This document shows positions 2,721 through 49,855 of a stretch of DNA of 64,000 bases, in pieces. The notes beneath the pieces were generated by a model. It saw nothing but the letters and a program-made list of their open reading frames with translations. It made no database searches and was not told the origin of the DNA. The number at the start of each line of letters is the position of its first letter. Position 1 is the first letter of the stretch. The stretch comes from Lepidostoma basale (taxonomy: Eukaryota; Arthropoda; Insecta; Trichoptera; Lepidostomatidae): NCBI GenBank assembly GCA_022606425.2, contig JAHDVF020000162.1:558001-622000 (forward strand), given 5' to 3'. A program made the position numbers and the translations under genes.

Positions 2721-2739
2721 TCTTATGTTGTCTCAATAT

Positions 2740-3182: not shown

Positions 3183-3211
3183 GTGAGACTTTTTGTTTAA
3201 ATAAATAATAA

Positions 3212-3558: not shown

Positions 3559-3574
3559 GGATACGATAAAGCCA

Positions 3575-3942
3575 TACGCCTTTGAGATGTGGATATACCG
3601 CAGAATGATCCGTATACCGTGGACCGATAGGGTCAGTAATGCAGACGTACTGCAGAGAGCCAGAGCCAATAGAGAGCTGTTGTCCAGTGTGAAAGTTAGA
3701 AAGGTCTCATATTTGGGTCATGTGCTAAGGGGAGAAAAATACCACCTCCTTCACTGATATTAATGGGTAAAGTAGAGGGATGTTGGGGAGTTGGTAGAAG
3801 GCTGCTGTTCTGGCTGCGGAACATTAAATAATGGACAGGAATTACTACAGATCAGAACCTGTTTCAAGTGGCACAGGACAGAGATGCCTTCGCTGCTGTG
3901 ATCGCCAACGCCGGCACCGGAAGAAGAAGAATATACAGATTT
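3575..3942 (+). mobile_element. non-LTR retrotransposon tail (GAA-tail family)
   Basis: The plus strand encodes FEMWIYRRMIRIPWTDRVSN, ADVLQRARANRELLSSVKV and SYLGHVLRGEKYHLLH, then a frameshifted basic block and a tail of GAAGAAGAAG repeats. It is the longest copy of this family here, but its frame is broken after 3757. Confidence 0.72.
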
Positions 3943-3999
3943 ATTTCACATTTGTCTAAGAGATCTAATTTCTACTGCACTTATACTATAATTAATGTC

Positions 4000-4181
4000 A
4001 ATGAAAACATCTGTTTTCTAGAAATTGTATTATATTTTATGTGAATGACATCTTTCGCCTGTCTAATGCATTATCAAATGTGATAATGCCTTATTTTACA
4101 TATTTGAAAATGCCTTAGATAGGTGAAACATGTCATTCACATAAAATATAATAAAAATTCTAGAAAACTGTCATTTTCATT
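4000..4181. mobile_element. hairpin MITE, degraded copy
   Basis: A ~75-bp left arm (from AATGAAAACATCTGTTTTC) is the inverted complement of the right arm ending GAAAACTGTCATTTTCATT. Both arms contain the TTCTAGAA/TTATATTTTATGTGAATG core. The same terminal and core motifs recur in the much better hairpin at 59828-60024 and as half-copies at 10185-10255 and 36917-36965. There is no coding capacity. Confidence 0.7.
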
Positions 4182-4182
4182 T

Positions 4183-4620
4183 GTAGAAAAGAGCATGAAC
4201 TCCTGAAGTCCTGGTGCTTAGTGTGTATGAGGTATGTGGTAATGTGAACAAGTCCAAGGTAATGATTTTCAAAAGAGAAGAAGTCTGCAACATTAGCGTG
4301 AATGGTGAAAATCTGGAACAAGTAAAATCAATGCAATGAATATGTGAAAATCTATATAAAATAGTGTCAAATGAAAATATTTGATGTGAATGCAGTGCGA
4401 ATGAAAGTGTTTTGAAAAGATCATTAAGATGGTTTGGACCCATGGAACGAATGAATGAAGAAAGAATGGTAAAAAAAAGTATATGTAAACGATGTAAACG
4501 CAACTAGAAATAGCGGAAGACTGAGGAAAATCAAATATTGAATGCCAGACACGTGAGGAGTCAGAGAAATAGACGTGCGTGCATGACACAATGAATGAAT
4601 GTTGAGGAAATAAGAGAAGT
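4183..4620 (+). mobile_element. RTE-like 3' fragment (GTTA-tail family), rearranged
   Basis: The plus strand contains, in order, degraded versions of the CNISVNGENLEQ segment, the SECGANESV segment, the LRWFGHMERMNEE motif, the VNDVN block and the SRNRRAC segment. Large internal deletions separate them. The order matches the longer copy at 13701-14720, which confirms the identity. It meets an oppositely oriented copy at about 4630. Confidence 0.68.
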
Positions 4621-4635
4621 AAACAAACAAACAAA

Positions 4636-5950
4636 CCATCACGCCGTTTCTCCACAGGGGTAGGCAGAAAGAATAGACCACCACGCTACTCTATCCTGGC
4701 ACACCTCTTTAGCTTCCTCCACATTTATACAACGAGTCATACACGCACGTCGATTCATCTGACTTCTAACATGACCAACCTTTAAAATTTGATTAATTTG
4801 GTCATGCCATGTTTTCTTCGGTCGAGACACATACACAGAGTATTCATACATTCGCCTATGAGACCACATTTCTACTGCATTTATTCTACTTTCATCCTTC
4901 TTCTGCCAGTTATGTGCTACGCTTCCATACATAAAGGTCGGTACAAAAACTCCATTGTGCACTGCCATTTTAGCTTTTTTGGATATTTTTTTGTTTGCGA
5001 TGACAACTTTAAGTGCACCATTCACTTTGTTGCCTGCCCCAACTGTTCTTTCAATATCCCTCTCCACTGTAAACATACTACCCAAAAACACGAATTCATC
5101 TAATTGCTCCAAATTTTCTACATTCACGCTAATGTTGCAGACTGTCATGATTTCTTATTTTTCAAAATTCATTACACTTGTCCATATACAGATTAAATAA
5201 CCACGGGGACATTACCCACCTTTATTGATATCAAACCAGGCTGTAAGATTTCCGTTTACACTGACACTAGCAGTGCTCTCCGTGTATAGCGACTTAATTG
5301 CCGTGATCAATTTTTACTTATTCCATATTCAGACAATATATTCCACAACTTTTCCCTATTTACGTAATCATATGCTTTTTGCAAATTGACAGACGCACAG
5401 AAACGTTTGTGGTTTTTGGCCAGAAACTTATTTGTCAATGTTCGAAGTCCAAAAATGTGATCCATACATCCTCTGCCATTCATAGAGGCATCTTGCACAT
5501 CCCAAACTTTGTCACTTATCAACCTTCTTACTCTTTTTCTTAAAATTCTGCCGTAGACTTTACCAACGACACTCAAAAGACTAATAGCTCTGTGGTTTCC
5601 ACATTTCACATGCGATCCTGTTCCTTTGTACAGGGGCATAATTACTGCTCTCCTCCAGTCTTGCGGCGTATATCCCTTTTCCAAGCAAAGATTAAATAAC
5701 TAACATAGCCATGCAAAAACCACTTTGCTACAGCATTTAATAAAATCTATAGCGATACAATCAAACCCAACAGCTTTTCCACTTTTCGTTGCTTTCATGG
5801 ATCTTTCCACCTCATTCGTACTTAATTTCTCAATATTATCATTATAAGATCCCGCATTCGCACTAGTTGTAATACTTCCGATCACGCTTGTTTCACCAGT
5901 ATCTTTATTGTGTACTTTTAACATATTTATATTTTCTCGGGGTCCTGCCA
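4636..5950 (-). mobile_element. RTE-like retrotransposon, longest reverse-transcriptase region but broken
   Basis: The minus strand reads from 5950 leftwards. First come GKAVGFDCIAIDFIK and SKVVFAWLC. Then 5684-5307 has PQDWRRAVIMPLYKGTGSH, NHRAISLLSVVGKVYGRIL, NGRGCMDHIFGLRTL and VNLQKAYDYVNREKLWN, the N-terminal half of the reverse transcriptase domain. After a deletion that removes the YADD region, MSPWLFNLYMDKC and CNISVNVENLEQ follow, then the usual tail to SAYPCGETA. Internal deletions and frameshifts make it non-functional. Known family knowledge: these blocks are RTE-type palm and fingers motifs. Confidence 0.75.
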
Positions 5951-6155
5951 TATGAATAGGTACCTACCGGCATTTAAAAAGTTAAAAGTATTTACCAACA
6001 GTGATTTCGAGACGCCATTCCTACTGACCGTTTCTTCTATAGAATACAAATGAGTCGTCTATGGGAGTGTTATATTTATATCTATGCTTTATTCTGTTGA
6101 CATTTTCAACTCGAGAGGGATGAGTGTTTATATTGTGTATTTAGCTTTAATACCT

Positions 6156-6773
6156 ATGCCTGATGGGAATACAGCGTGCGAAAGTTCAGGACAATTGGAG
6201 AGTGTGTTTATTAAGTCTGAGCCGGACTCGGCTACCTGGGATACCAACGGCAATGAAGGAAACATTTTGCAGCAGCTGAATCTAGACGACAGTTCGATGA
6301 ACATCGCGATTGTCAATACAGAATCGATCAAGAAGGAAAATGATGACGTGGACTCGAAGAAAGATATCAATATCAAGATCGAGCCTCCCGATCGCGTAAG
6401 AGATTCAGAATATTGCATAGACGTGTCGCATGGCGCTGTGAAACAAAATCACGAAGAAACAAATGAGTCTAAAAATAATTATCAATTAGACTTTGAAAGT
6501 GATCGTGAGGCTACCTACTTAGTTGCGAGGCCTTCTTCTAGTGGAAGGAAAGCTCACGATTTCGCTATGAGGCTTATCGGTCGACATTTCCCTGCTCCAG
6601 TCCCACAAACACAAGCCCAAGGGTCCAATACGAGGAGAAAATGTCACGTGTGCAGTCATACTACGCTAAGACCCAAAACCCGCAATAATACCAAGTTCAT
6701 GTGTGAAGAATGTGATGTTCCCTTATGTGTGCACCCGTGTTTTAGAGAATTTCATACGAAAAAACACTATTAA
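6156..6773 (+). CDS. host-transposase fusion: ZF-family N-terminal domain plus piggyBac cysteine-rich domain
   Basis: An open frame of 205 codons from the ATG at 6156. The same frame is open from 6084, so a longer start or an upstream exon ending at the TTTAG near 6142 is possible. Residues 10-97 align with the N-terminal domain of the zinc-finger family downstream: FIKSEPDSATWD (18-29), LNLDDSSMNIAIV (41-53), IKIEPPD (73-79) and IDVSHGAVKQ (88-97). SUMO-type ψKxE lysines K20, K59 and K74 are present. Residues 139-205 match the end of piggyBac transposases: RLIGRHFPAPVP, then C163/C166, C183/C186, C191/C195, with H168, H200 and H204. No C2H2 finger and no catalytic aspartate domain is present. 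In known piggyBac the cysteine-rich domain binds terminal repeat DNA; a nuclear DNA-binding role here is inferred. The stop codon TAA lies inside a TTAA where another piggyBac element begins. Confidence 0.75.
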   Translation: MPDGNTACESSGQLESVFIKSEPDSATWDTNGNEGNILQQLNLDDSSMNIAIVNTESIKKENDDVDSKKDINIKIEPPDRVRDSEYCIDVSHGAVKQNHEETNESKNNYQLDFESDREATYLVARPSSSGRKAHDFAMRLIGRHFPAPVPQTQAQGSNTRRKCHVCSHTTLRPKTRNNTKFMCEECDVPLCVHPCFREFHTKKHY

Positions 6774-6899
6774 CCCATTGCACCACTAATAAAGATGACA
6801 TAATTTGTTCATACAACACACTATTTCATTTTGACTCATTCTTTTATTACAATAACATTAAGAATCAACTAAGATGCGAAATCTCCGTATGCCAAGAAA

Positions 6900-7428
6900 A
6901 AATTTAACAGTTAGACCAATTTAGATATCTCGGAAGCGAAGTAACCAGCTCCAATGACCTCCCCAGAGAAGTAAGGTCACAGGTAGATAAGGCTGCAGCG
7001 GTTGCAGGCTGTATAAGACCTGTGTGCGACCAATCCTCACATATGGCATTGAATCGAGGGCAGACACTGTCAAGACAAAGAGCATGCTCGGGACAACCGA
7101 GATGAAAACACTCCGCGCTATAGCTGGCAAGACCCTACGTGATCGAGTTAGGAATACAGCAATCCGAGAAATCTGCGAGGTCGAAGATGTGGTCAGATGG
7201 GGACGTCAAAGACGGCGATACTGGCATCAACATGTATGTAGAAAGGATGAGCTCAAATAGGATACCACACATAGCTCTTCATGGAACGCCAAACGGACAA
7301 CGCCGACCAGGAAGACCCCCGAAACGGCGGAGAGAAAGCTGGAGTTCAGCGTCTCAAGAGGACCCGCCAGAAATAACAGACTCCTGAGTCTACCAAAAGT
7401 GAAGAAGAAGAAGAAGAACATTAAGACT
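6900..7428 (+). mobile_element. non-LTR retrotransposon tail (RTE-like, GAA-tailed)
   Basis: The plus strand encodes MRPILTYGIESRADTVKTKS, TEMKTLRAIAGKTLRDRVRN, AIREICEVEDVVRWGRQRRR and YWHQHV, followed by the frameshifted GQRRPGRPPKR basic block. It ends in (GAA)n at 7403-7420. Related copies are at 37110-37690 (-) and 47446-47710 (-), with a very decayed one at 9890-10140 (+). Confidence 0.75.
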
Positions 7429-7479
7429 AAATTACACACAAAATAAAAATGGTAAAACATAAAAGCATAATTCATAAGC

Positions 7480-8414
7480 TAGATCATTATGGCTCATCCC
7501 CAGGTAGTTTTGGAAGAGTGTGATAAGCTTGAAAGCATTCTGGCATGTGGAGAGACTCATTTCTCACATTCCCATCGAGATTCGCTCGTCTTTTTCTTCA
7601 AGGAACACATTTAGCATAATCTCGGTGGGTTTTGTTTGACTGAATTTGGTGGATTTGCCTAGGAAAGTGTGTCCATTGCAATGCTTGTTGCCGTAAAGGG
7701 CATACTCCTCCTGAAACTCTTCCACGGCGCTTGTATGATGGCAGGGTAATGTGCTCAACAATTCTCTCAGTTACATCAATCCTATAGTCACCGTATAATG
7801 CCATGTCTGCCAAGTAAAAAATATTTTCTTGTAACCCTTGGAGTCTTCTTCTTTTTGTCCTGTCACACCTCCGTGGTGCATAGGGCCTCAATGAACCTTC
7901 TCCACTCGACTCTATCGCATGCCTGATGCTTAACATCATCCCAAGTGAGGCGTGCTGCCTTAACCTCTTCTCCAGGTGGCTCTAGGTCTGCCTCTTTTTC
8001 TCTTTCCCCCTATAGGGACCAGTCTAGTGCGCCCTGAGCGATGCAGGCTGGATTCCGTCTCAGAGTGTGACCGATCCACTGCCATTTGCGTCTAGCGACT
8101 TGTTCTCTAATTGGCTTTTCGCCTGCCATGGTCCAGAGAACGGCATTTGACACTGTTTGGGGCCAATAGAGTTTGAATATTGAGCGAAGGCACCTATTTA
8201 TAAACACCTGGAGTTTACCCTTGGAGTATCTCCGCATAATTGGAAAGGAAGCGAAATTTGAACGCTCCAAAACATTGTTCGAAGGGCTAAAATCACTAGA
8301 ATATTCATCAACTTCATTCTCACTGCCACTTTCCAAAAGGATTCGCTGTATTTCATCCTCATTTGATGAAATATTACAAGCGCGACGAGTTTATTTACGA
8401 GTGCGTTCGGGCAT
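7480..8414 (-). pseudogene. piggyBac transposase relic, N- and C-terminal parts only
   Basis: Reading leftwards from an ATG at 8414: an acidic start with an early stop (MPERTRK), then NEDEIQRILLESGSENEVDE, YSSDFSPSNN and MRRYSKG. After the retrotransposon insert at 7845-8216 the same protein resumes as LQENIFYLADMALYGDYRID, TERIVEHITLPSYKRRGR, WTHFPRQIHQIQSNKTHRDY and AKCVP, then a broken cysteine-rich end (SLHMPECFQAYHTL). The catalytic middle, normally ~350 residues, is missing. Stops and frameshifts exclude function. Confidence 0.72.
7845..8216 (-). mobile_element. non-LTR tail (CTT/GAA-tailed family) with 11-bp target duplication
   Basis: The target duplication ACCCTTGGAGT is found at 7834-7844 and 8217-8227. 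The element's (GAA)n tail is at its left (minus-strand 3') end. Coding remnants on the minus strand are ARRKWQWIGHTLRRNPACIA, QGALDW and a degraded GRPRATWRR block. Sister copies are at 15003-15356 and 37858-38275. It splits the piggyBac transposase relic. Confidence 0.85.
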
Positions 8415-8733
8415 TTTGGAGGTATTGACAGATGTTAAAATATCGTAATATTTTGGTAATAAATTGTGATTATTACATTTAATTATGAAGTTAGTAACCG
8501 AAATATACTTATTTAAGTCATTTTTATGAATAAAGTTATTGTCATTCAGTTTTAATGTAAAAAAAATCACTTCAAAGACAAACCGGCGAATCGCCGGCTT
8601 GTCTTCAATGGCTTTGTGTTGCAATGGGTTAACTTGTTATTATTCAGATAGTCAGGACATGAAAGACTTAGAACGATCCCAACATAGTGAAGAAGATAGT
8701 ATCCCAGGGAAAATTCTCTAAAACTGAGGTGGA

Positions 8734-8990
8734 TGCAGTGGTGGTACTACCATAGAAGCCCAGAAGCCCGGCTTGCCTAAGAAATTTTGAATCAAAACCC
8801 CCAAATCTAAGTAATCATGCCCCCGTATAAACCAACAACTCACCAAATCACCTCCCAACAATGTTCCCATCGGACGTAAGAGGAATAGCCACAAGAGCTG
8901 AACCTCTGTAAGCCGGAAGAGGTTTTGATTCAAAATTTCTTACGCAAGCCGGGCTTCTGGGCTTCTATGGGAGTACCGCCACTGGGTGGA
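8734..8990. mobile_element. foldback element with ~67-bp inverted arms
   Basis: The left arm (8734-8800, with CATAGAAGCCCAGAAGCCCG and AAATTTTGAATCAAAACC) is inverted and repeated at 8919-8990 with few mismatches. The ~118-bp loop contains the repeat also found at 1836-1930. There is no open frame of note. It looks like a non-autonomous foldback or MITE. Confidence 0.75.
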
Positions 8991-9181
8991 TGGATGGTGT
9001 GGAGCGGTGTTACAAGCTGGAGAATGCGGGCGATGGACCCGGGAGAGTGGCGAAGAATTCTGGAGGAGGCCGGGGCCCATGGACAGGAGATGAAGAGAGG
9101 AAGAGGCTGGCTGGAGACAGGGCTGAGTGGAGGAAACTAGTGAAGCTTGTTGCAGATACAATCCAGAGTAACCATGAATAA
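8990..9181 (+). mobile_element. short non-LTR retrotransposon tail
   Basis: The plus strand carries AMDPGEWRRILEEAGAHGQE in one frame and DRAEWRKLVKLVADTIQSNH in another. Both are typical ends of retrotransposon proteins (a basic stretch, then DRxEWRxLV). It sits directly after the foldback and may be part of the same composite insertion. Confidence 0.5.
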
Positions 9182-9189
9182 GAAATCAG

Positions 9190-9570
9190 GACAAAACAAG
9201 ATTTTAAAAAGAGAACCTGGAAAATACTTTCCAGACAGCACTGTGCAGTTTTATAATCTGCTTTAGGAGCTGATCTGCGGGAAGGAATACAAGCCCAAGT
9301 CAATAAGACAGCTGCTATCTCTTGTACTTTAAAATCCACAATATGGAAAAACAAAGACATGGCCATTAGCCTTTTGCTACACCAGCGAGAAATGCCATAT
9401 CCGACAGATCAAAGTCATGATTTATAAAAGAATCAGATACATTTTAGACAGAGTGTGAAAAGTGAGTCAGTGGCACATATTATTTACGATTTGGGTACAT
9501 ATTTAATAAAATAATCATATTTAGAATGAAAAGACAATTTATAAATTAAAAGTACCCCAAAATTGCCGCC
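9190..9570. other. unassigned intergenic DNA
   Basis: About 380 bp with no open frame, repeat or motif that I can assign. Confidence 0.5.
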
Positions 9571-10140: not shown

Positions 10141-10184
10141 TGTAGTTAGTAAGTTTACACTCTACCAACAAGCTGAGAGACAAT

Positions 10185-10255: not shown

Positions 10256-10297
10256 AGCTAACCAGAAATTCATACTCGGAGAAGTTGAATGTTAATG

Positions 10298-18476: not shown

Positions 18477-18758
18477 AAAAAAATGTCTATGGATATGAGC
18501 ATTCTGAAATCGGGAATCTGTCATTAGTCGTTATTTCGAAGGCGATAATTGGACAACTGTCGCGATGCATCGGAACGATTGAAATGAGATATTCTTAAGT
18601 GAATCGTTTCTGACCCGGTGTCTATAGAACTAGTATTCACGTGTGTCATTATAGTTTGCTTGTCTTAAAAGTGCCGCAAGTCAACATCTCAATTTTTCAT
18701 TTCGTGTAACAAGTTTGCGTGTCCATTGAACTTCAGAACCATAACTGAATTGAGAAGG
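18477..18758 (+). promoter_or_regulatory. conserved upstream block of ZF1
   Basis: Stretches such as GTCTATGGATATGAGC, CGATAATTGGAC, GTGAATCGTTTCTGA, GTGTCATTATAGTTTG and CGTGTAACAAGTTTGC recur, in the same order, upstream of ZF2 and partly of ZF3 to ZF6. It probably holds the promoter and 5' untranslated region. In ZF2, ZF4 and ZF6 a conserved GTCCAG before the start could be a 3' splice site; here it reads GTCCAT. Confidence 0.55.
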
Positions 18759-20300
18759 ATGGAGGACTATATTTCGAGGAGCATCAAGCGAGAGAGTCCG
18801 GAACAATCGGAGGGTGTGTTATTGGTTCGTGTTAAGTCTGAACCGGAACCGGCTCTCTCGGATGCCAGCGGAGACGACGATAACGTTTCGGAGCGTCTAA
18901 ATCTCGAAACGAGTTCGCTGAACATCACAAATATCAAGGTTGAGTCTATAAAAATCGAAATCGATTTTAAAGATGATGAAAAGGATAACTTTGATTTAGA
19001 AAATGATTTGATGGACCCTACGAAAGTCAAGATTGAGCCTCCCGATAGTGAAAACGAGATTATACACGACGACATTTTCTCAGTAGAAATAGATGTGTCA
19101 TGTATTAAAAAGCAAGATCCCTTGGAATTAGAAGAATCTGGCAACAAACCATTAGAAATGAAATCAGATTTAAAAAGTAATTTGTTTAATCAATCGGAGG
19201 TAAAATCATTTGAATGTACGACGTCCAAAAAACAGTTTAAAACGAAATTAAAATTAAAAAATCATGTGCGTACCCATTCAGAAGTAAAACCAATTAAATG
19301 TTCAATGTGTTACAAACCGTTCAAAACAAAATCAACGTTGACTTTTCATATGCTTACTCATTCGGATGTTAAACCTTTTGGCTGTTCTATATGCAATAAA
19401 CTGTTCAAAAGAAAATCATTATTAAATAGACATATGCTCATTCATTCAAATGTAAAACAATTTGAATGTTCTATATGCAACAAACCGTTTAAAAGAAAGT
19501 CAGATTTAAAAGGACATCATCGTATTCATTCAGAAGAAAAACTATTTGAATGTGCGACGTGCAACAAATCTTTTAAAACAAAACCAAATTTAAAAAGTCA
19601 TTTGCTTACTCATTCAGATATTAAACCATTTGAGTGTTCAATGTGCAACAAACCGTTTAAAACAAAATCAGAATTAAACGGGCATTTTCTTTCTCATTCG
19701 GATGTAAGATCATTCCAATGCTCAACGTGCAACAAATCGTTTAAAACAAACAAACGTTTAAAAAAGCATTTTCTTTCTCATTCAGATACAAAATCATTTC
19801 AATGCTCAGTGTGCAATAAACTGTTTAAAACAAAGTCAATACTAAAAATACATTTGCTTACTCATTCAGATGTAAAGCAATTTAAATGTTCAATATGCAA
19901 AGAAGCATTCCAAACAATATCACTTTTGAAAACGCATTTTCTCACCCATTCGGGTTTGAAACCATTTGAATGTGAGGTGTGCAGACAACAGTTCGCATTT
20001 AATTCGCAGTTAACACGACATTTGCTCGTTCACTCGGTAGAAAAACCTTTTGAATGTCCAACGTGCAACATACCTTTCAAAACAAAATCCGATTTAAAAA
20101 GACATTCTATTGCTCATTCCGATATTAAAGAATTTGAATGTCCAACGTGTAACAAACTGTTTAAAACAAATTTATATTTAAAAAACCATTTACTTACTCA
20201 TTCAGATGTAAAACCATTTGAATGTTTGACGTGCATTCGAACATTTAAATCTAAAACAATTTTTAAAAGACATTTACGCACTCATTCACATAATAAATAA
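18759..20300 (+). CDS. ZF1: C2H2 zinc-finger protein, 12 fingers, SUMO-motif N-terminus
   Basis: 513 residues from the ATG in AGAAGGATGG (A at -3, G at +4); the in-frame codons just upstream lack an ATG. Residues 1-150 form an acidic domain with ψKxE sites VKSE (25-28), IKVE (59-62), IKIE (64-67) and VKIE (90-93). A first finger is broken (FECTTSKKQF: second Cys is Ser). Twelve intact C-x2-C-x12-H-x3-H fingers follow, joined by linkers of the type SDVKxFEC. Finger helices are mostly KTKSxLKxH, so specificity positions vary little. Likely a nuclear sequence-specific DNA-binding protein; its target is unknown. Neighbours ZF2 and ZF3 lie on the same strand. The reading frame is intact. Decayed fingers continue past the stop. 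Confidence 0.9.
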   Translation: MEDYISRSIKRESPEQSEGVLLVRVKSEPEPALSDASGDDDNVSERLNLETSSLNITNIKVESIKIEIDFKDDEKDNFDLENDLMDPTKVKIEPPDSENEIIHDDIFSVEIDVSCIKKQDPLELEESGNKPLEMKSDLKSNLFNQSEVKSFECTTSKKQFKTKLKLKNHVRTHSEVKPIKCSMCYKPFKTKSTLTFHMLTHSDVKPFGCSICNKLFKRKSLLNRHMLIHSNVKQFECSICNKPFKRKSDLKGHHRIHSEEKLFECATCNKSFKTKPNLKSHLLTHSDIKPFECSMCNKPFKTKSELNGHFLSHSDVRSFQCSTCNKSFKTNKRLKKHFLSHSDTKSFQCSVCNKLFKTKSILKIHLLTHSDVKQFKCSICKEAFQTISLLKTHFLTHSGLKPFECEVCRQQFAFNSQLTRHLLVHSVEKPFECPTCNIPFKTKSDLKRHSIAHSDIKEFECPTCNKLFKTNLYLKNHLLTHSDVKPFECLTCIRTFKSKTIFKRHLRTHSHNK

Positions 20301-23259: not shown

Positions 23260-23550
23260 CAAAAAAAGTGTCTATGGATATGAGCGATCTGATAACAGGA
23301 ATCTGTCGCTATTTCCCATCCCATTTCCTCAGCCGATAATTGGACGTCTGTCGCAATACATCGAAACGATCTTATTCTCAAGTAAATCGTTTCTGACACG
23401 GTGTCTACAGAACAAGTATTCATTCACGTGCGTCATTATAGTTTCCTTGTCTTAAAATTGCAAGTCAACCTACAACTTTTCATTCCATGTAACAAGTTTG
23501 CTGTGTTTGTGTGTCCAGTGACCTCCAGAACCGCAACTGAATCTAGAAGG
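23260..23550 (+). promoter_or_regulatory. conserved upstream block of ZF2
   Basis: Closest to the ZF1 block: GTGTCTATGGATATGAGCG, CGATAATTGGACGTCTGTCG, AAATCGTTTCTGACACGGTG, TCTACAGAACAAGTATTCA and GCGTCATTATAGTTT. The TTTGTGTGTCCAG before the start looks like a 3' splice site (inference). Confidence 0.55.
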
Positions 23551-25278
23551 ATGGAAGATTATATATCTGGGAGCACCGAGAGAGAGAGTCCGGAACAATC
23601 GGAGGGTGTGTTATTGCCTCGTGTTAAGTCTGAGACGGAAGCGGCTGCCTGGGATGTCAGCGGAGACGACGATATCATTTCGGAGCGACTAAATCTAGAA
23701 ACTAGTTCGATGAAAATCACAAATGTCAAGGTTGAGTCTCTCAAAATCGAAATCGATTTTAAAGATGATGAAAAGAATAACTTTGATTTAGAAAATGATT
23801 TGATGGACCACACGAACGTCAAAATTGAGCCACCCGATAGTGAAAGCGATAATATACACGACGACACGTTATCAGTAGAAGTAAGATACAAACCAATTCA
23901 AATGAAAACAAATTTAAGTAGTAATGTGTTGAATCATTCTGGCGTAAAAGTGGAGGACTACATAACTGGGAGCACCGAGCGAACGAGTGCGGAACAATCG
24001 GAGGGTGTGTTATTGCATCGTGTTAGGTCTGAGCCGGAATCGGCTACCTGGGAAGTCAGCGGAGACGACGGTAACATTTCGGAGCGTCTAAATCTAGAAA
24101 CGAGTTCGTTTAACATCACAATTATCAAGGTTGAGTCTCTCAGTATTGAAACTGATTTTAAAGAGGGTGGCGTGAAAAACGAAGATATAGAAATTGATTC
24201 AATGGACCCCACTAACGTTAAGATTGGGCCTCCGGATGGCGAAAAGAATTGTATACGCGACGATACGTTCATTTTAGATATAGATGAGTCGTACAGTATT
24301 GAGAAGCAAGATCCAGTAGAATTACAAGGGTCTAGAACCAAACCGATCAAAATACAGTCAGAATTAAATAGTAATTTGTCTCATCATTCAGACCTACTGC
24401 CATTTAAATGTTCAAGTTGCGGCAAACGGTTTAAAATAAAATCAGATTTAAAAAAACATTTTGTTAGTCATTCGAATGTAAAACTATTTGAATGTTTTAC
24501 GTGCAACAAAGCGTTTAAAAGGAAATCACATTTAAAAACCCATCGGCTTACACATTCTGATGTAAAACTATTTGAATGTTCAACATGCAACAAATCGTTT
24601 AAAAGGAAATCAGGTTTAATACATCATTTTATTTCTCATTCAGATGTTAAACTATTTGATTGTTTAACGTGCCACAAATCGTTCAAAAGGAAATCAGATT
24701 TAAAAAAACATTTAATTACTCACGAAGATGTAAGACCATTTGAATGTTCAACTTGCAACAAAATGTTTAAAACAAAATCAGATTTAAAACAACATTTTAA
24801 TACTCATGAAGTTGTAAGAACATTGGAATGTTCAACTTGCAACAAAATGTTTAAAAGAAAATATGAATTGAAAGTACATTATCTTACTCATTCTGATGTA
24901 AAACTATTTGAATGTTCAACGTGTTACAAATCGTTTAGATTAAAATCACAATTAAAATCTCATTTGCTTTCTCATTCAGATGTAAGACCATTTGATTGTT
25001 CAACGTGCAACAAATCGTTTAAAACTAAATTAGAGTTAAAAAAACATTTTATTACTCATTCTGATGTAAAACTATTTGAATGTTTAACGTGCAACAAACT
25101 GTTTAAATTAAAATCGCATTTAAAAACTCATTCGCTTTCTCATGCAAAACTATTTAAGGGATTACGCCACCCTGAAATTTTAAAAAAATCAGAGGAGCTC
25201 AAAAAGAATCGGAGGACATCACAGCAACAATATAAGACCGCATGTACGGTTCAGGAATCGCAGACTAAAGGTAATTAA
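23551..25278 (+). CDS. ZF2: C2H2 zinc-finger protein, duplicated N-terminal domain, 9 fingers
   Basis: 575 residues from the ATG in AGAAGGATGG. The acidic domain occurs twice in tandem: the first copy covers residues ~1-117 (VKVESL, VKIEPPD) and the second ~133-260 (VEDYITGSTERTSAEQSEGV, IKVESL, VKIGPPD, EKQDPVE). In the second copy the first ψKxE is VRSE and the third VKIG, so two SUMO lysine contexts are lost there. Nine intact C2H2 fingers follow with SDVKLFEC or EDVRPFEC linkers. The tail after the last finger is basic (HPEILKKSEELKKNRR). The AAAG|GTAATT at the end could be a 5' splice site joined to TTTCAG near 25603, which would add only a few codons. Likely nuclear DNA-binding. Confidence 0.9.
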   Translation: MEDYISGSTERESPEQSEGVLLPRVKSETEAAAWDVSGDDDIISERLNLETSSMKITNVKVESLKIEIDFKDDEKNNFDLENDLMDHTNVKIEPPDSESDNIHDDTLSVEVRYKPIQMKTNLSSNVLNHSGVKVEDYITGSTERTSAEQSEGVLLHRVRSEPESATWEVSGDDGNISERLNLETSSFNITIIKVESLSIETDFKEGGVKNEDIEIDSMDPTNVKIGPPDGEKNCIRDDTFILDIDESYSIEKQDPVELQGSRTKPIKIQSELNSNLSHHSDLLPFKCSSCGKRFKIKSDLKKHFVSHSNVKLFECFTCNKAFKRKSHLKTHRLTHSDVKLFECSTCNKSFKRKSGLIHHFISHSDVKLFDCLTCHKSFKRKSDLKKHLITHEDVRPFECSTCNKMFKTKSDLKQHFNTHEVVRTLECSTCNKMFKRKYELKVHYLTHSDVKLFECSTCYKSFRLKSQLKSHLLSHSDVRPFDCSTCNKSFKTKLELKKHFITHSDVKLFECLTCNKLFKLKSHLKTHSLSHAKLFKGLRHPEILKKSEELKKNRRTSQQQYKTACTVQESQTKGN

Positions 25279-26525: not shown

Positions 26526-28538
26526 ATGTCACAAGCAACCAAGCGTGAGTTTCCGGAACAATCGGAGAATGAATTAATTGCCTGTGTTAAGTCTGAACCG
26601 GAAGAGACTCTCTGGGATTCCAACGGAGACGATAAACAAGATTTGGAGACGCTGAATCTAAAAGAAAACTCTGAGAACATCACAAATGTCAAGTTAGAAT
26701 CTTTCAAAACGGAAAACGATTTTGAAAATAATGACACGCGTTACGCAGATATGGGAAATGATTTTTCCGGTAATATTAACTTAAATATAATAGTAAAGTG
26801 TCACAAGCAATCATCGATATTTTATTTTTCACGTAACACGTTTTCGGATTTTGCAGTATCCTCCAGAATCTCAAGAGGAATCGAAAGGATGGAAGGCCAC
26901 GTGTCTGGAAGCATCAAGCGGGAGGGTCCGGAACAATTGGAGACGGTCTGTGTTAAGGCTGAACCGGAAGAGACTCTCTGGGATTCCAACGGAGACGATG
27001 GAAACGATTTGGAGACGCTGAATCTAAAAGAGAAGTCGGAGAACATCGCATTTGTCAAGTTAGAATCTTTCAAAAAGGAAAATGATGACACGCATAACGC
27101 AGATATGGAAAATGATTCCAGTTTTAAAAGGGAAATAAAAAAAGAAGATAGGTTTTCTGTAGGTATAGGTGTGTCAAATAGTATTGTGAAGCAAGATCCT
27201 TTAGAAATAGATGGATTTAGAAAGAGCACTATGAGTTCGGTAAATTCAGTTCCAACCCATCAGAATACTAAAAAAAAAACATTCAAATGTTCGACATGCA
27301 CCAAACGGTTTGCATACAAATCGTCCTTAATAAAACATTTTATCGTTCACTCGGATGATAAAGTTTTTTCTTGTATGACCTGCAACAAAATGTTTAAGAG
27401 AAAAAGAGAATTGAAAATCCATTCGCTCACCCATTCGGATGTAAAACCGTTTGATTGTCCGATTTGCAAAAAAGCATTTAAAACGAAATTTGAATTAAAA
27501 AGTCATTCGCTTACTCATTCTGATGTAAAACCTTTTGAATGTTTAATTTGCGGAAAACGGTTTGTAGTTAAATCGAGGTTAATGCAACATTTACCGATTC
27601 ACTCGGAAGATAAACTTTTTACATGTTCGAAATGCGATAAATCGTTTAAAACACAAAAAGATTTAAAAGGTCATATGCTTACTCATACAGATGTAAAACC
27701 ATTTGAATGTACGATATGCAGAAAACAATTTGCAGTTAAATCGCGGTTAATACGACATTTTCTGATTCACTCGGACGATAAAGCGTTTTCCTGCATGATC
27801 TGCAACAGACTGTTTAAGAGAAAATCAGAATTAAAAAGACATTTACTTATTCATTCTGATATAAAACCATTTAAATGTTCGACTTGCCTCAGGCCGTTTA
27901 AATCTGCTTCCAGGTTAAAAAGTCATTCGCTCATTCATTTAGATGTGAAACCTTTTGAATGTTCAACTTGCAGAAAACAATTTGCACTTAAATCGCAGTT
28001 AATACAACATTTACCCGTTCACTCAGATGATAAACTTTTTACATGTTCGAGATGCGATAAACCATTTAAAACCGAAAAAGATTTAAAATCCCATATGCTT
28101 TCTCATTTAGATGTAAAACTATTCAAATGTCCAGAATGTCACAAACTGTTTAAAACAAAAAAAGATTTAAAAGGTCATATGCTTACTCATTCAGATGAAA
28201 AATTATTTAAATGTCCAGAATGCCACAAACCGTTTAAAACAAAAAAAGATTTAAAAAGCCATATGTTTACTCATTTAGATGTTAAACCATTTGAATGTTC
28301 GACATGCAAAAAACAGTTTGCAGTTAAATCGCGGTTAATGCAACATTTGCTCACTCACTCGGACGATAAAGCGTTTTCCTGTATGACCTGCAGCAGACCG
28401 TTTAAGAGAAAATCAGAATTAAAAAAACATATGCTTGTTCATTCTGATGAAAAACCATTTCAATGTTCGGCGTGCGCCAAACCGTTTAAAACAGCATTCG
28501 AACTAAAAAGACATTCGAATACCCATTTAAATGTGTAA
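26526..28538 (+). CDS. ZF3: C2H2 zinc-finger protein, 15 fingers, double N-terminal domain
   Basis: 670 residues if read from the ATG at 26526. The N-terminal domain appears twice (KREFPEQSE/CVKSEPEETLWD, then KREGPEQLE/CVKAEPEETLWD). Between them the frame reads through DNA homologous to the 5' untranslated region of the paralogues (CACGTAACACG, then CTCCAGAATC, then AGGATGGAAG). The true start may therefore be the ATG at 26889, with the first copy a leftover or alternative exon. Fifteen intact fingers follow. They fall into blocks: QFAVKSRL-type, KRKSEL-type and KTxKDL-type fingers recur, pointing to duplication of multi-finger units. Linkers are SDDKxFSC, SDVKPFEC and LDVKPFEC. It is the most diverged paralogue. 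Confidence 0.88.
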   Translation: MSQATKREFPEQSENELIACVKSEPEETLWDSNGDDKQDLETLNLKENSENITNVKLESFKTENDFENNDTRYADMGNDFSGNINLNIIVKCHKQSSIFYFSRNTFSDFAVSSRISRGIERMEGHVSGSIKREGPEQLETVCVKAEPEETLWDSNGDDGNDLETLNLKEKSENIAFVKLESFKKENDDTHNADMENDSSFKREIKKEDRFSVGIGVSNSIVKQDPLEIDGFRKSTMSSVNSVPTHQNTKKKTFKCSTCTKRFAYKSSLIKHFIVHSDDKVFSCMTCNKMFKRKRELKIHSLTHSDVKPFDCPICKKAFKTKFELKSHSLTHSDVKPFECLICGKRFVVKSRLMQHLPIHSEDKLFTCSKCDKSFKTQKDLKGHMLTHTDVKPFECTICRKQFAVKSRLIRHFLIHSDDKAFSCMICNRLFKRKSELKRHLLIHSDIKPFKCSTCLRPFKSASRLKSHSLIHLDVKPFECSTCRKQFALKSQLIQHLPVHSDDKLFTCSRCDKPFKTEKDLKSHMLSHLDVKLFKCPECHKLFKTKKDLKGHMLTHSDEKLFKCPECHKPFKTKKDLKSHMFTHLDVKPFECSTCKKQFAVKSRLMQHLLTHSDDKAFSCMTCSRPFKRKSELKKHMLVHSDEKPFQCSACAKPFKTAFELKRHSNTHLNV

Positions 28539-32468: not shown

Positions 32469-33947
32469 TTATTTTTTCTTTAAACGGTTTGTTACACGTT
32501 GAACATCCGAATGAATAACTATATGTTTTTTTAAATCAGATTTTGTTTTAAACGGTTTGTGGCATTCTGAACATTCAAATAGTTTTAAATCTGAATGAGA
32601 AAGCATGTGTCTTTTTAAATATTGTTTTGCTTTAAACGGTTTAAAGCACGTTGAACATTTAAATAGTTTTACATCTGCATGAATACACATATGTCTTTTT
32701 AAATCTGATTTGGTTTTAAACGGTTTATAGCAAATTGAACATTTAAACAGTTTGATATCTGAATGAGTACGCAAATGTCTTTTTAAAATTGAATTCGTTC
32801 TAAACGTTTTGTAGCACGTTGGACATTCAAATAATTTAACAACTGAATGAGTCAACAAATGATTTTTTAATGCTCTGTTTGTTTCGAACGATTTGTGGCA
32901 CGCCGAACATTCAAAGAAATTAACATTTGAATGAGTAGGCAAATGTCTTATTAAATCTGATTTCCTTTTAAACGGTTTATAGCACGTTGAACATTCAAGT
33001 ACTTTTACATGAATACGCAAATGATTTCTTAAAGTTTTTTTTGTTTTTAACGGTTTGTTGCACGTTGAACATTCAAACAGTTTTACATCTGAATGACAAA
33101 GTAAATGATTTGTTAAATTAGATTTTGTTCTAAACGGTTTGTGGCATTCTAAACATTCAAATAGTTTTACATCTAAATGAGTAAGCATGTGATTACTTAA
33201 ACATTGTTTTGTTTTAAACGGTTTACAGCACGTTGAACATTCAAATAGTTTTACATCTGAATGAACAGTCAAATGTCTTATTAAATCTGATTTCGTTTTA
33301 AACGGTTTAGAGCACGTTGAACATTCAAATGGTTTTACATCTGAATGAGTAAGTAAATGCAGGTTTAAATATTGTTTTACTCTAAACTGTTTGTTGCACG
33401 TTGGACATTTAAATAGTTTTACATCTGAATGACTAACCAAATGACTTTTTAAACGTCTGATTTTAAGCGATTTGTTGCTCGTTGAATATTTATATCGTTT
33501 GACATTTGAATGAACAGGCAAATTACTTTTTAATTCTGATTTCGTTTTTAATGGTTTGTTTCTGGACACTTCTATTTCTACAGGATCCTGCTTCACAATA
33601 CTGCATGATATATTTATATCTACGGAGAACTTATCGTCGTGTATTATATCACTTTCACTACCGGGTTGCTCAATCTTGACAATCGTAGGGTCTTTCGAAT
33701 CATTTTCTATATGTTCGTTATATATTTCAATATCTTTAAAATCGATTTCATTACTGAGAGACTCAACCTTGACAATTGTGATGTTCGTCGAACTCGTTTC
33801 TAGATTTAATCGCTCCGAGATGTTATCGTCGTCTCCGCTGACATCCCAGGTAGCCGGTTCCGGCTCAGACTTAACACGAGGCAATAACACGCCCTCCGAT
33901 TGTTCCGGACTCTCTCGCTCGGTGCTCCCAGATATGTAGTCCTCCAT
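32469..33947 (-). CDS. ZF4: C2H2 zinc-finger protein, 11 fingers, SUMO-motif N-terminus
   Basis: 492 residues from the ATG at 33947 (AGAAGGATGG context). N-terminal acidic domain ~1-135 with VKSEPE, VKVESL, VKIEQP and VKQDPVE; the typical PPD after the third site is QPG here. The first finger has lost both cysteines (YKYSTSNKSLKIRRLKSHLV). Eleven intact fingers follow; the sixth and seventh are joined by a shortened linker (RIHVKVLEC). Helix variants include KTKSDL, KTKQCL, ETNRAL and KAKQYL. Closest paralogue by 5' flank is ZF6. Transcribed opposite to ZF1-ZF3. Likely nuclear DNA-binding; no known target. Confidence 0.9.
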   Translation of the reverse strand: MEDYISGSTERESPEQSEGVLLPRVKSEPEPATWDVSGDDDNISERLNLETSSTNITIVKVESLSNEIDFKDIEIYNEHIENDSKDPTIVKIEQPGSESDIIHDDKFSVDINISCSIVKQDPVEIEVSRNKPLKTKSELKSNLPVHSNVKRYKYSTSNKSLKIRRLKSHLVSHSDVKLFKCPTCNKQFRVKQYLNLHLLTHSDVKPFECSTCSKPFKTKSDLIRHLTVHSDVKLFECSTCCKPFKTKQCLSNHMLTHLDVKLFECLECHKPFRTKSNLTNHLLCHSDVKLFECSTCNKPLKTKKTLRNHLRIHVKVLECSTCYKPFKRKSDLIRHLPTHSNVNFFECSACHKSFETNRALKNHLLTHSVVKLFECPTCYKTFRTNSILKRHLRTHSDIKLFKCSICYKPFKTKSDLKRHMCIHADVKLFKCSTCFKPFKAKQYLKRHMLSHSDLKLFECSECHKPFKTKSDLKKHIVIHSDVQRVTNRLKKK

Positions 33948-42068: not shown

Positions 42069-43700
42069 TTATTTTACATCTGAATGAATAAGTAAATGTT
42101 TGTTTAAATATTGTTGTGTTTTAAACGGTTTACAGCACGTTAGACATACAAATAGTTTTACATCCGAATGAGTATACATGTGACTTATTAAATTTGATTT
42201 TATTTTAAACGATTTACAGCACGTTGCACATTCAAACAATTTTAAATCTGAATGAGTAAGTAAATGACTTTTTAAATATTGTTGTGTTTTAAACGGTTTA
42301 CGACACGTTGAACATTCAAATGGTTTTACATCCGAATGAGTAAGTAAATGCATTTTTAAATGAGATTTTGTTCTATTTTTTTTATTGCACACTGAGCATT
42401 TAAAGAGCTTAACATCGGAATGGGTAAGCAAATGAGATTTAAATGCTTTGTATGTTTTAAACGGTTTGTTGCATGCTGAACATTCAAAGAGTTGTACAGC
42501 CGAATGACTAAGTATATGACTTTTTAAAGCGGATTTGATTTTAAACTGTTCACAGCATGTTGGACATTCAAAAAGTTTTACATCTGAATGAGCAAGCAAA
42601 TGTTTCTTTAAAGATTCCTTTCCTTTTAACAGTTTACAGCATGTTGAACATTCAAATAGATTTTTATCTGAATGAGTATGCAAGTGTTTGTTTAACAATT
42701 TGTTAGATTTAAACGCTTTGTTGCACGTTGGACATACAAATAGTTTTACATCTAAATGACTATGCAAGTGATTTCTTAATAATCTGTTTGTTTTAAACTG
42801 TTTTTTGCACGTGGAACATTCAAAGAGCTTTATATCCGAATGAGTATACATGTGTCTTATTAAAACTGACTGGGTTTTAAACGATTTATAGCACGTTGCA
42901 CATTCAAATAGTTTTACATCAGAATGAGTAAGCAAATGATTTTTTAAATATTGTTTTGTTTTAAACGATTTACAGCACGTTGAACATTCAAATAGATTTA
43001 CATCTGAATGAGTATTCACATGAGCTTTTAATGCTCTGGATGTTTTAAACGGTTTATTGCAGGTTGAACATTCAAATAGATTTACATCCTGATGGGTAAG
43101 CAAATGATATTTTAATGATTTTTTTGTTTTAAACGGTTTGTTGCACGCTGAGCATTCAAAGAGTTTTACATCCGAATGAGCAAGCAAGTGTATTTTTAAA
43201 TTAGATTTGCTTCTAAACGGTTTGTTGCACGTTAAGCATGAAAATTGTTTTACGCCTGAACGAGTCAAAACGTGATTTTTTAAGCCGGGTTTTATTTTAA
43301 ATAGTTTGTTTTTAGGCCCTTCTACTTCTAATGTATCTTGCTTCACAAAACTGTATGACACATCTATATCTGCGGAGGACGTATGGTCATGTTCAATTTT
43401 TTTTGTTTCCCTATCAGAAGGCTCCATTTTTACGGTAGTAGGGTCCATCAAAACATTTTCTATATCTTCGTTGTTCATGGTTTCATTTTGAATATCGATA
43501 TTCTTTCTGAGAGATTCCATCTTAACAATTGTGATGTTCATCGAACTCGTTTCTAGATTAAATCGGTCCGATATGTTATCGTCGTCTCCGCTGACATTCC
43601 AGGTAGCCGGTTTCGGCTCAGACTTAACACGAGACAGTAACACACCCTCCAATTGTTCTGGACTCCCATGCTCGGTACTCCCAGATATATAGTCCTCCAT
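42069..43700 (-). CDS. ZF5: C2H2 zinc-finger protein, 14 fingers
   Basis: 543 residues from the ATG at 43700 (AGAAGGATGG); an in-frame TTG upstream is not credible. N-terminal domain ~1-150 with VKSEPK, VKMESL, VKMEPSD and VKQDTLE. A stub KLFKIKPGLKNHVLTRSG is a headless finger. Fourteen fingers with complete Cys2His2 follow; finger 11 (CSVCNKKNRTKSHLKMH) lacks the hydrophobic core Phe and finger 10 has Phe in place of the core Leu. Linkers SDVKLFEC, SDIKLFEC and LDVKLFVC. The stop follows SDVK of a linker, suggesting truncation by mutation. Likely nuclear DNA-binding. Confidence 0.9.
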   Translation of the reverse strand: MEDYISGSTEHGSPEQLEGVLLSRVKSEPKPATWNVSGDDDNISDRFNLETSSMNITIVKMESLRKNIDIQNETMNNEDIENVLMDPTTVKMEPSDRETKKIEHDHTSSADIDVSYSFVKQDTLEVEGPKNKLFKIKPGLKNHVLTRSGVKQFSCLTCNKPFRSKSNLKIHLLAHSDVKLFECSACNKPFKTKKSLKYHLLTHQDVNLFECSTCNKPFKTSRALKAHVNTHSDVNLFECSTCCKSFKTKQYLKNHLLTHSDVKLFECATCYKSFKTQSVLIRHMYTHSDIKLFECSTCKKQFKTNRLLRNHLHSHLDVKLFVCPTCNKAFKSNKLLNKHLHTHSDKNLFECSTCCKLLKGKESLKKHLLAHSDVKLFECPTCCEQFKIKSALKSHILSHSAVQLFECSACNKPFKTYKAFKSHLLTHSDVKLFKCSVCNKKNRTKSHLKMHLLTHSDVKPFECSTCRKPFKTQQYLKSHLLTHSDLKLFECATCCKSFKIKSNLISHMYTHSDVKLFVCLTCCKPFKTQQYLNKHLLIHSDVK

Positions 43701-43875
43701 CCTTCTTTGTTTAGTAACGGTTCTGGAGGTCAAACGTAAACGCAAACACAGCAAACTTTTTAAACGAAATTAAAGTTGAAGGTCGATGTTGACTTGCGAC
43801 ACTTTTAAGACAAAGATGGTAATAGCAATGACGCACGTTGTTACTTGTTCTGTAGGCACCGGATCCTAAACTTCC
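43701..43875 (-). promoter_or_regulatory. conserved upstream block of ZF5
   Basis: The minus strand reads CCGGTGCCTACAGAACAAGT, GTGCGTCATTGC, TCTTAAAAGTGTCGCAAGTC and GACCTCCAGAACCG, matching ZF1 and ZF2 upstream DNA. Confidence 0.52.
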
Positions 43876-48589: not shown

Positions 48590-49855
48590 ATGGAGGACTG
48601 CATTTCTGGGAGCACCAAGAGAGAGAGTCCGGAACAATTAGAGGGTGTATTATTGCTTCGTGTTAAGTCAGAGCCGGAACCGGCTACCTGGGATGTCAAC
48701 ATAGAAGAAGATAACATTTCAGAACGACTAAATGTAAAAACGAGTTCAATGAACATCACAATTGTCAAGGCTGAGTCTCTCAGCTATGAAGTCGATCTTA
48801 AAGACAACGGAATGATTAACGAAAATATAGGAAATGATTCGGTGAATAAGTTTGAGCCTCCCGATAATGAAAGTGATATTAAACACGACGATTCGTTCTC
48901 TGTAAATATAGATGTGTCATACAATATTGTGAAGCAGGATCCTATAAAAATAGAAGTTTACGGAAACAAACCATTTAAAACGAAATCAGAATTGAAAAGC
49001 ACTTTGCCTGGTCATTCAAATGAATGTTCAACGTGTTACAAATCCTTTAAAAAAAGACGATATTTAAAATGTCATTTGCTTACTCATTCAGATGTAAAAC
49101 TCTTTAAATGTTCAAGGTGTAACAAACAGTTTAAAACAAAACAATATTTAACCATGCATTTACTAACTCATTCAGATGTAAAATTATTTAAATGTTCAAC
49201 GTGCAACAAACAGTTTAAAGCAAAACAATATTTAGACGTGCATTTGCTGACTCATTCAGATGTAAAACTATTTAATTGTTCAACGTGCAACAAACAGTTT
49301 AAAACAAAAAAATATTTGAACATGCATTTACTTGCTCATTCAGATGTAAAACCATTTGAATGTCCAACGTGCCTTAAACCGTTTAAAACTAAATCGGATT
49401 TAAAAAAACATTTGCCCACTCATTCTGATGTAAAACTCTTTGAATGTTCGACGTGCAACAAATCGTTTAAAACAAACAAAGCATTAAAAATTCATTTGTT
49501 TACTCATTCAGATGTTAAATTATTTGAATGTCCAACGTGCCACAAATCCTTTAGAACAAAATCTACTTTAAAATGTCATTTACTTATTCATTCAAATGTA
49601 AAGATATTTGAATGTTCAACGTGTTGCAAGCCTTTTAAAACAAACTCAGATTTAATGAGACATTCGGTTACTCATTCAGATGTTAAACTGTTTGAATGTT
49701 CGACGTGCAACAACAAATTTAAAAGAAAACGTGATTTAACATTTCATTTGTATACTCACTCAAATATAAAACTATATAAATGTTTAACGTGCAGCGTTCC
49801 GTTTAAAACAAAAAAAGAACTAAACAAACATTTTCTTACTCACTCTGATGTATAG
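48590..49855 (+). CDS. ZF6: C2H2 zinc-finger protein, 10 fingers
   Basis: 421 residues from the ATG in AAAAGGATGG. N-terminal domain ~1-125 with VKSEPE and VKAESL (both ψKxE-type); the VKIEPPD site is degraded to NKFEPPD and VKQDPIK remains. The first finger has a shortened approach (HSNECSTCYKSF) after a lost finger. Ten intact fingers; fingers 2-4 are near-identical (KTKQYL, KAKQYL, KTKKYL), suggesting recent tandem duplication. Linkers SDVKLFKC, SDVKLFEC, SNVKIFEC. The stop falls after SDV of the next linker. Likely nuclear DNA-binding. Its 3' end and flank are duplicated at 62918-63315. Confidence 0.9.
   Translation: MEDCISGSTKRESPEQLEGVLLLRVKSEPEPATWDVNIEEDNISERLNVKTSSMNITIVKAESLSYEVDLKDNGMINENIGNDSVNKFEPPDNESDIKHDDSFSVNIDVSYNIVKQDPIKIEVYGNKPFKTKSELKSTLPGHSNECSTCYKSFKKRRYLKCHLLTHSDVKLFKCSRCNKQFKTKQYLTMHLLTHSDVKLFKCSTCNKQFKAKQYLDVHLLTHSDVKLFNCSTCNKQFKTKKYLNMHLLAHSDVKPFECPTCLKPFKTKSDLKKHLPTHSDVKLFECSTCNKSFKTNKALKIHLFTHSDVKLFECPTCHKSFRTKSTLKCHLLIHSNVKIFECSTCCKPFKTNSDLMRHSVTHSDVKLFECSTCNNKFKRKRDLTFHLYTHSNIKLYKCLTCSVPFKTKKELNKHFLTHSDV

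Follow-up and report, generated by a model that had tools for sequence, protein, structure and literature searches.

Fusions between host genes and transposases are already known as a kind. PGBD1 carries a SCAN/KRAB-type N-terminus on a piggyBac derivative, and KRABINER is a KRAB-mariner fusion of bat origin. In primates, CSB-PGBD3 joins a host N-terminal region to a piggyBac-derived part and binds MER85 elements through a 16-bp internal palindrome (PMC3459987, excerpt); its transposase ORF is added by alternative splicing from an intron. SETMAR, which combines SET and mariner, and KRABINER both set the DNA-binding part of a transposase beside a regulatory host domain, and in the F-box A2 / Mos1 HTH genes a multicopy host family has captured a transposon DNA-binding domain (PMC12062965, excerpt). 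PiggyMac of Paramecium is a domesticated piggyBac whose cysteine-rich domain (CRD) has the ligand order H-C-C-C-C-C-C-H; it keeps the endonuclease core, and its CRD is described as not binding DNA (PMC8086355, excerpt). The CRD of piggyBat (residues 494-572) reads an imperfect palindrome as a dimer, with R543 and E545 touching bases (PMC11707139, excerpt).

The locus described here, FUS1, places a piggyBac CRD behind the N-terminal domain of a C2H2 zinc-finger family. It resembles CSB-PGBD3 in pairing a host N-terminal region with a piggyBac-derived part for which palindrome binding is predicted, and differs from it in that the CRD stands alone, is joined within the frame, comes without catalytic core and sits in a multicopy zinc-finger family. 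With PGBD1 it has in common a zinc-finger-protein-type N-terminal domain on a piggyBac derivative, while PGBD1 is without the CRD in the excerpted text of PMC11707139 and FUS1 has the CRD alone. Compared with KRABINER and SETMAR, the parts are a piggyBac CRD and a SUMO-motif-rich domain; compared with the F-box A2 / Mos1 HTH genes, both the transposon superfamily and the host domain are other ones; and PiggyMac, unlike FUS1, has its endonuclease core. CSB-PGBD3, SETMAR, KRABINER and F-box/Mos1, as the excerpts present them, thus differ in build from a gene in which the CRD alone replaces the finger array in a multicopy family. Among the open-licence papers listed, no title or abstract beginning described a zinc-finger gene whose fingers had given way to a piggyBac CRD, or a THAP-CRD fusion, and the excerpt of PMC10027918, on six families of TE-derived factors, does not contain the word 'piggyBac'. 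Judged by sequence, the exchange of fingers for a CRD appears new within that literature.

FUS1 is a single open frame of 205 codons (6156-6773, plus strand; ATG at 6156, stop codon at 6771-6773) in the window, by which we mean the whole 64,000-nucleotide stretch analysed (C694:558001-622000). The frame is open upstream as far as 6054, and by inspection its ATG lines up with that of the C2H2 paralogues. The sequence-only reading had proposed a host N-terminal domain fused to a piggyBac CRD in an intact frame, with a transposon DNA-binding module in place of the finger array. Both proposals hold, as the 205 codons are uninterrupted, the CRD matches and Pfam detects no C2H2 finger in the frame. 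The extents had to be revised: the N-terminal homology, given as about 97 residues, covers residues 1-118; the piggyBac domain, given as the last 67 or so, takes up about 87 (roughly 119-205); and the last 67 residues hold the six Cys counted before together with six His rather than three. The zinc-finger DNA homology runs to 6499-6509, and for five of six transposase queries the transposase homology has a clear start at 6516-6546; a distant alignment at 27% begins at 6429 and another reaches about 6459. These limits place the join at about 6510, shortly ahead of the expected first finger and with an approximate boundary; a separate linker at residues 98-138 was not seen. An AlphaFold model of the FUS1 protein alone had a pLDDT of 38 and was set aside for fold search. 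A protein search with FUS1 in a 5.8-billion set gave 46 candidates, none at E 1e-3, which says little on conservation because even relatives of zinc-finger or piggyBac type were missing from the result.

Table 1. Coordinates of FUS1, its neighbours in the window, the other fusion loci and short elements carrying a left-end motif (plain numbers are window positions).
Feature	Position	Strand	Basis or remark
FUS1 fused coding frame	6156..6773	+	205 aa + stop; translation, Pfam and PDB matches
N-terminal domain common to local C2H2 family	6156..6509	+	tblastn/blastp against paralogues
piggyBac C-terminal cysteine-rich domain (CRD)	6510..6770	+	Pfam, piggyBat 9c0f, genome transposases; boundary approximate
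Possible splice acceptor, T-rich, ending TTTAG, 5' of FUS1 ATG	6126..6144	+	sequence inspection only
C2H2 paralogue, same N-terminal domain	18726..20300	+	N-terminal domain match, finger count
C2H2 paralogue, two N-terminal domains in tandem	23401..25278	+	N-terminal domain match, finger count
C2H2 paralogue, two N-terminal domain matches in tandem	26526..28538	+	N-terminal domain match, finger count
C2H2 paralogue	32469..33947	-	N-terminal domain match, finger count
C2H2 paralogue	42069..43754	-	N-terminal domain match, finger count
C2H2 paralogue	48590..49855	+	N-terminal domain match, finger count
TTAA-flanked element, inverted ends TTAACCCATTGCA	6770..8632	.	inverted repeat 20 nt, 90%
31-bp near-perfect GC-rich palindrome	8575..8605	.	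near 8632 end of 6770-8632 element
FUS2	C694:654560-655993		478 codons; 90 kb from FUS1
FUS3	C1544:94612-95883		424 codons
FUS4	C1066:105351-106496		382 codons
Short TTAA element with GAGTATGGGCGTACATGAACG (L056)	C117:1823901
Short TTAA element with GAGTATGGGCGTACATGAACG (L057)	C137:563501
Short TTAA element with GAGTATGGGCGTACATGAACG (L058)	C171:189901
Short TTAA element with GAGTATGGGCGTACATGAACG (L059)	C837:44101

The C-terminal part of FUS1 matches Pfam PF13842 (zf-Tnp_2) over residues 153-200 with 39.9 bits (cut-off 24; E 6e-10), the sole Pfam family above cut-off in the protein. Its best solved relative is the piggyBat transposase 9c0f, aligned to residues 155-205 with an E-value of 2.8e-5 for the whole protein and 6.4e-6 for the CRD alone, and the captured 87 or so residues come close to the structured piggyBat CRD. 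Taking ligand roles from published CRD structures, we predict eight zinc ligands in cross-brace order (H144, C163, C166, C183, C186, C191, C195 and H200); the order H, C-x2-C, C-x2-C, C, C, H is retained in FUS1 and FUS2 alike. The CRD has a net charge of +10, and residues 155-205 have a pI of 9.3, similar to the 9.2-9.6 of the resident piggyBac families A-C. Among the matches listed, identity to transposases of the same genome is 56-60% for families A-C and falls to about 32% for more distant ones. Of the transposase only the last 87 or so residues are present, so that the DDD catalytic core is absent from the frame, and six transposase queries found nothing else in the window at E 1e-3. A cognate transposon for FUS1 was sought and not obtained: none of the 145 matches listed in the genome CRD search (best 150 of 738 candidates scored) is more than 60% identical across the domain, the exceptions being FUS1 itself and a FUS2-type fragment with 66% identity to the FUS1 CRD.

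With a numbering offset of 6, which we infer, R543 of piggyBat aligns to R176 of FUS1 and E545 to N178. At the E545-equivalent, families A and B have E and family C has D; FUS1 and FUS2 have N there, and FUS3 has K. In the fusions the arginine is thus retained while the acidic residue is lost, and with Asn at this position in FUS1 and FUS2 the DNA specificity of the fusion CRDs may have shifted.

Each of the six C2H2 genes in the window contains a match to the N-terminal domain of FUS1 (E 6e-19 to 2e-14 for the best match per gene) and has 9-15 fingers by regular-expression count. The domain is closer to C2H2-family frames that lie 86-109 kb further along the contig, the best at 49% identity and E 6e-29. 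FUS1 therefore shares the defining N-terminal domain of the local family and not its finger array, and a query with the fingers of one paralogue found no finger remnants in window 1-18600 (best E 0.51). SUMO is linked to silencing. The N-terminal domain has a net charge of -16 and contains three psi-K-x-E/D motifs, starting at residues 19, 58 and 73, against a shuffle mean of 0.35 (5 of 2000 shuffles as high). Zinc-finger N-terminal domains of the family hold 2-7 such motifs each, at least four in 14 of the 15 counted, whereas the enrichment is weaker in the first N-terminal domains of FUS2-FUS4 with three each (50-77 of 2000 shuffles as high); one overlapping FUS4 row has four. By this enrichment the domain is a candidate SUMO-acceptor domain.

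The genome (768.8 Mb, 1572 contigs) is probably that of an insect, to judge from its repeats. Its six-frame search with FUS1 gave 151 matches, the best 150 of 516 candidates being scored. Among the matches listed, the N-terminal domain and the CRD lie in one frame at three loci besides FUS1 (Table 1), and an intact host-plus-transposase frame is thereby found at more than one locus of this genome. Around FUS3 and FUS4, three stretches of 1.1-1.9 kb each are 97.5%, 98.2% and 99.1% identical and a fourth is 92% identical; the two loci are probably alleles or a recent copy and were therefore counted as one. Their CRD has lost the last His and one Cys, and by one alignment the first His too. By inspection, a copy of the fusion join sits between the N-terminal domains of FUS2, hence the fused segment was duplicated internally. 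Tandem N-terminal domains resembling those of FUS2 are also seen in the C2H2 genes at 23401-25278 and 26526-28538. A CRD-only fragment of FUS2 type, 87% identical to FUS2, lies at about C694:670397-670552 and is followed by the same retroelement piece as FUS2, as in a segmental copy.

The FUS2 frame opens with a stretch ending in AVPSIFP, which we take to be the end of a THAP domain. Upstream lies a THAP exon (C694:657005-657232, minus strand; L010:2232-2005; Pfam THAP E 4.3e-12), and inspection suggests that its donor (GATG/GTATGT) and the FUS2 acceptor (TTTTTAG/GTTCAG) would join in phase. The same exon is present at FUS3 and FUS4 (L014, L015; 78-79% identity). At E up to 1 it has at least 149 genome matches, from the best 150 of 154 candidates; the listed ones mostly show 67-70% identity, and the exon apparently comes from a THAP-bearing repeat. 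FUS2-FUS4 thus seem to carry DNA-binding domains from two repeat families, and such domain capture may repeat. No THAP exon was found 5' of FUS1 in window 1-6155 or in C694:538001-558000 (26 kb together; best E 0.48); among the matches listed genome-wide, the only plus-strand THAP match upstream on C694 is at C694:479814, 84 kb off and weak (E 0.13).

Potential targets of the fusion CRDs reside in the same genome. Two copies of family A (C92 and C1039) are 99.4% identical over 2573 bp with an open frame of 583 codons, and two copies of family B (C426 and C1319) are 99.8% identical over 2442 bp with one of 613 codons. The left ends of families A-C begin with TTAA, followed by [G/A]GTATGG and a palindrome that may be perfect or imperfect; family A has GTCGTATATATACGAC and a close variant of it, family B GACGTAAATGAACGTC and family C GCCGTACCTGCACGGC. 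These palindromes are candidate binding sites for the fusion CRDs, in parallel to CSB-PGBD3, whose MER85 binding needs the 16-bp palindrome (PMC3459987, excerpt). The motif GAGTATGGNCGTANNTNNACG, built from those left ends, has 99 genome matches (53 + 46), as against none for the same pattern read backwards. In a count that used 66 of the 145 listed piggyBac CRD matches, 73 of the 99 sites have such a match no more than 4 kb away, and 26 do not. The variant GAGTATGGGCGTACATGAACG has 13 genome matches; the four compared have 201-241 bp in common at 77-88% identity, TTAA adjoining in three of them, and look like short non-autonomous elements. At least three of these four (Table 1) contain two GTATGG-palindrome motifs and are MER85-like in this respect.

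Taken together, these comparisons lead us to propose, with a probability of about 50%, that the FUS1 protein would recognise piggyBac-end palindromes, to which binding is predicted, and would likely recruit SUMO-dependent silencing there. By analogy with other proteins, the CRD would bind zinc and dimerise on the palindromes, while the protein could not cut or move DNA because the catalytic core is absent. The acidic N-terminal domain, if SUMO-modified, would bring repression; alternatively, the protein could simply occupy the ends and keep the transposase off. FUS1-FUS4 would then be the few members of a domesticated gene family that lacks the catalytic core, is predicted to bind transposon ends and probably acts in SUMO-linked repression. 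Counted against this explanation are one domesticated CRD, that of PiggyMac, without DNA binding, the 26 of 99 motif sites that lie away from listed CRD matches, the Asn at the E545-equivalent, the TTAA element at the FUS1 stop codon, and the CRD half of the frame, which in neutral simulation often survives by chance. Whether a captured end-binding domain serves as a silencing guide is a directly testable question here, because near-identical piggyBac copies and 99 candidate sites with coordinates are available in the same genome.

The alternative that survives best, doubtful as we consider it, is that of a silent relic: a deletion would have brought a 3' fragment of piggyBac up against a truncated zinc-finger gene, and the FUS1 frame would still be open yet neither expressed nor of use. 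In the pairwise codon model the CRDs of FUS1 and FUS2, 73% identical in DNA, give an omega of 0.265 (p 4.3e-5 against 1; 84 codons), which together with the retention of all eight predicted zinc ligands in both argues against a relic. The N-terminal domains of the same pair give 0.10 (p 0.003, saturated), and FUS1 against four zinc-finger N-terminal domains gives 0.54, 0.56, 0.84 and 0.40 (p 0.057, 0.081, 0.59 and 0.013). Values for the FUS1 and FUS2 CRDs against families A-C are 0.07-0.11, all saturated, and family A against B gives 0.04. A relic would in turn be consistent with the branch model, in which omega for the FUS1 CRD is 0.24 and indistinguishable from 1 (p 0.33), the FUS2 CRD giving 0.47 (p 0.41); a five-taxon branch model was too saturated and was set aside. 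It would also be consistent with the near-neutral comparison of FUS2 and FUS3, about 81% identical in DNA: omega is 0.48 for the THAP exon (p 0.15), 1.01 for the basic repeats, 0.80 and 0.95 for the N-terminal domain parts, 1.16 for the CRD and 0.92 from the first N-terminal domain onward (p 0.74). Little can be read from FUS3-FUS4 (0.41, p 0.51) or from the comparison of FUS2 with its fragment (0.72, p 0.71). Further points for a relic are the degenerate CRD of FUS3 and FUS4, the CRD-only fragment of FUS2 type and a TTAA element directly at the FUS1 stop codon.

At d 0.15, 0.2 and 0.3, the 205-codon frame of FUS1 survived 74, 24 and 6 of 3000 neutral simulations with substitutions only and indels excluded, and its CRD half survived 732, 500 and 232; the rate of 24 at d 0.2 again speaks against a relic. 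The 478 codons of FUS2 stayed open in 2 of 1500 runs at d 0.1 and in none of 1500 at 0.15. From these simulations and the pairwise omegas, the fusion frames therefore look kept. FUS1 looks constrained jointly with FUS2, while FUS2-FUS3 looks relaxed or fast. Had FUS1 and FUS2 been fused separately, part of the path between them would lie inside a transposon, and the low omega would say less. The dN/dS estimates on both halves that the sequence-only reading had proposed as a check gave a divided answer, favourable for the CRD pair, not separable from neutrality on the FUS1 branch and saturated for the N-terminal domains of FUS1 and FUS2. That reading as a whole is supported in the join, the frame, some purifying selection and the psi-K-x-E/D enrichment, strengthened by the candidate sites at piggyBac left ends, and weakened by the FUS1-branch omega, the change of E545 to Asn, the near-neutral FUS2-FUS3 comparison and the zinc ligands missing from FUS3 and FUS4.

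A bolder extension of our proposal, which we regard as rather unlikely, is that the genome maintains a gene family directed against transposons, which recruits DNA-binding domains from the resident elements themselves as silencing guides. The scaffold with SUMO motifs would carry the piggyBac CRD in FUS1, and in FUS2-FUS4 also THAP from a second repeat family, each end-recognition module becoming a guide for silencing the transposon it came from. An arms race with resident piggyBac families would be expected to make the guides differ at the base-contacting residue, as they do.

Concerning history only, the gene family might have taken up CRDs of a single transposon lineage more than once, FUS1 and FUS2-FUS4 being independent captures, which seems unlikely to us. 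A CRD tree built from 19 of 36 CRD rows, the remainder being near-identical or short, has a branch that sets the four fusions apart (support 96/92; 95% of bootstrap trees), and smaller trees group FUS1-FUS3 with 83/91 (12 rows) and FUS1 with FUS2 with 85/86 (11 rows); this moderate support argues against separate captures. Forcing FUS1 together with family A costs 7.5 and 6.6 log units with 12 and 11 rows (AU p 0.066 and 0.062), which does not firmly reject that grouping. The similar position of the join likewise favours one event, as do marks seen by inspection, namely a one-residue gap of the FUS1 and FUS2 CRDs relative to all seven transposase rows covering the site and common residues (Ser after CHVC, Asn-Thr, Met-Cys-Glu, Pro-Leu-Cys, Glu-Phe-His-Thr). 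By raw identity, however, the FUS1 CRD is nearest to the family A transposase (59-60%, above the 57% to FUS2), and the N-terminal domain tree, for which one of the 20 rows, an overlapping one from FUS4, was left aside, puts FUS1 among zinc-finger genes and apart from FUS2-FUS4: the four form one clade in 20% of bootstraps, although joining them is not rejected (p 0.22). The missing THAP exon in the 26 kb searched upstream of FUS1 would also fit independent captures. On balance, a single fusion origin is more likely than two; trees and shared marks suggest one fusion, then duplication and divergence, with the THAP exon gained from the repeat in FUS2-FUS4.

We consider it quite improbable that the fused protein is made with its CRD serving as a dimerisation, chromatin or other protein-binding module that regulates host genes. 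This would accord with Asn in FUS1 and FUS2 and Lys in FUS3 at the E545-equivalent (number offset inferred), with the weak binding of the PiggyMac CRD to histone H3 and not to DNA (PMC8086355, excerpt) and with the tethering of CSB-PGBD3 to host AP-1 proteins (PMC3459987, excerpt). Against it, FUS1 keeps the Arg at the R543-equivalent and all predicted ligands, and its CRD has the basic pI of families A-C, whereas the PiggyMac CRD is acidic with a pI of 5.5 (PMC8086355, excerpt). Least tenable are a chance origin of the domain assignment, which neither the E-values nor the recurrence of this domain order at three further loci allow, and an assembly error around residues 98-138, the alternative named by the sequence-only reading, which falls since the same build at FUS2, FUS3 and FUS4 indicates that FUS1 is no assembly join. 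FUS1 is likely a host gene.

The TTAA-flanked element next to FUS1 is 1.86 kb long, degenerate, contains pieces of other repeats and is apparently inserted. Situated on the 3' side of the frame, it leaves FUS1 outside its ends; its first TTAA overlaps the stop codon, which is kept. Searched by blastn against families A-C and four other transposase loci, it matched only through one repeat piece shared with L016, and in the genome it is mostly a repeat in its interior that finds matches. The palindrome near its 8632 end has no counterpart found at the other end. An AATAAA lies at 6788, just 3' of the stop codon, and long inverted repeats adjoin FUS1 at 8736-8984 and 9676-10500 (64-nt arms, 95%; 62-nt arms, 90%). 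Elsewhere in the window, a frame at 38858-39337 ends in a Cys-rich stretch without Pfam match above cut-off, which by eye presumably resembles the other, T. ni-type piggyBac CRD. At 53102-59743, a retroelement-like frame of 1353 codons lies between two copies of one 124-aa frame, at 53102 and 59369, the arrangement that long terminal repeats would give.
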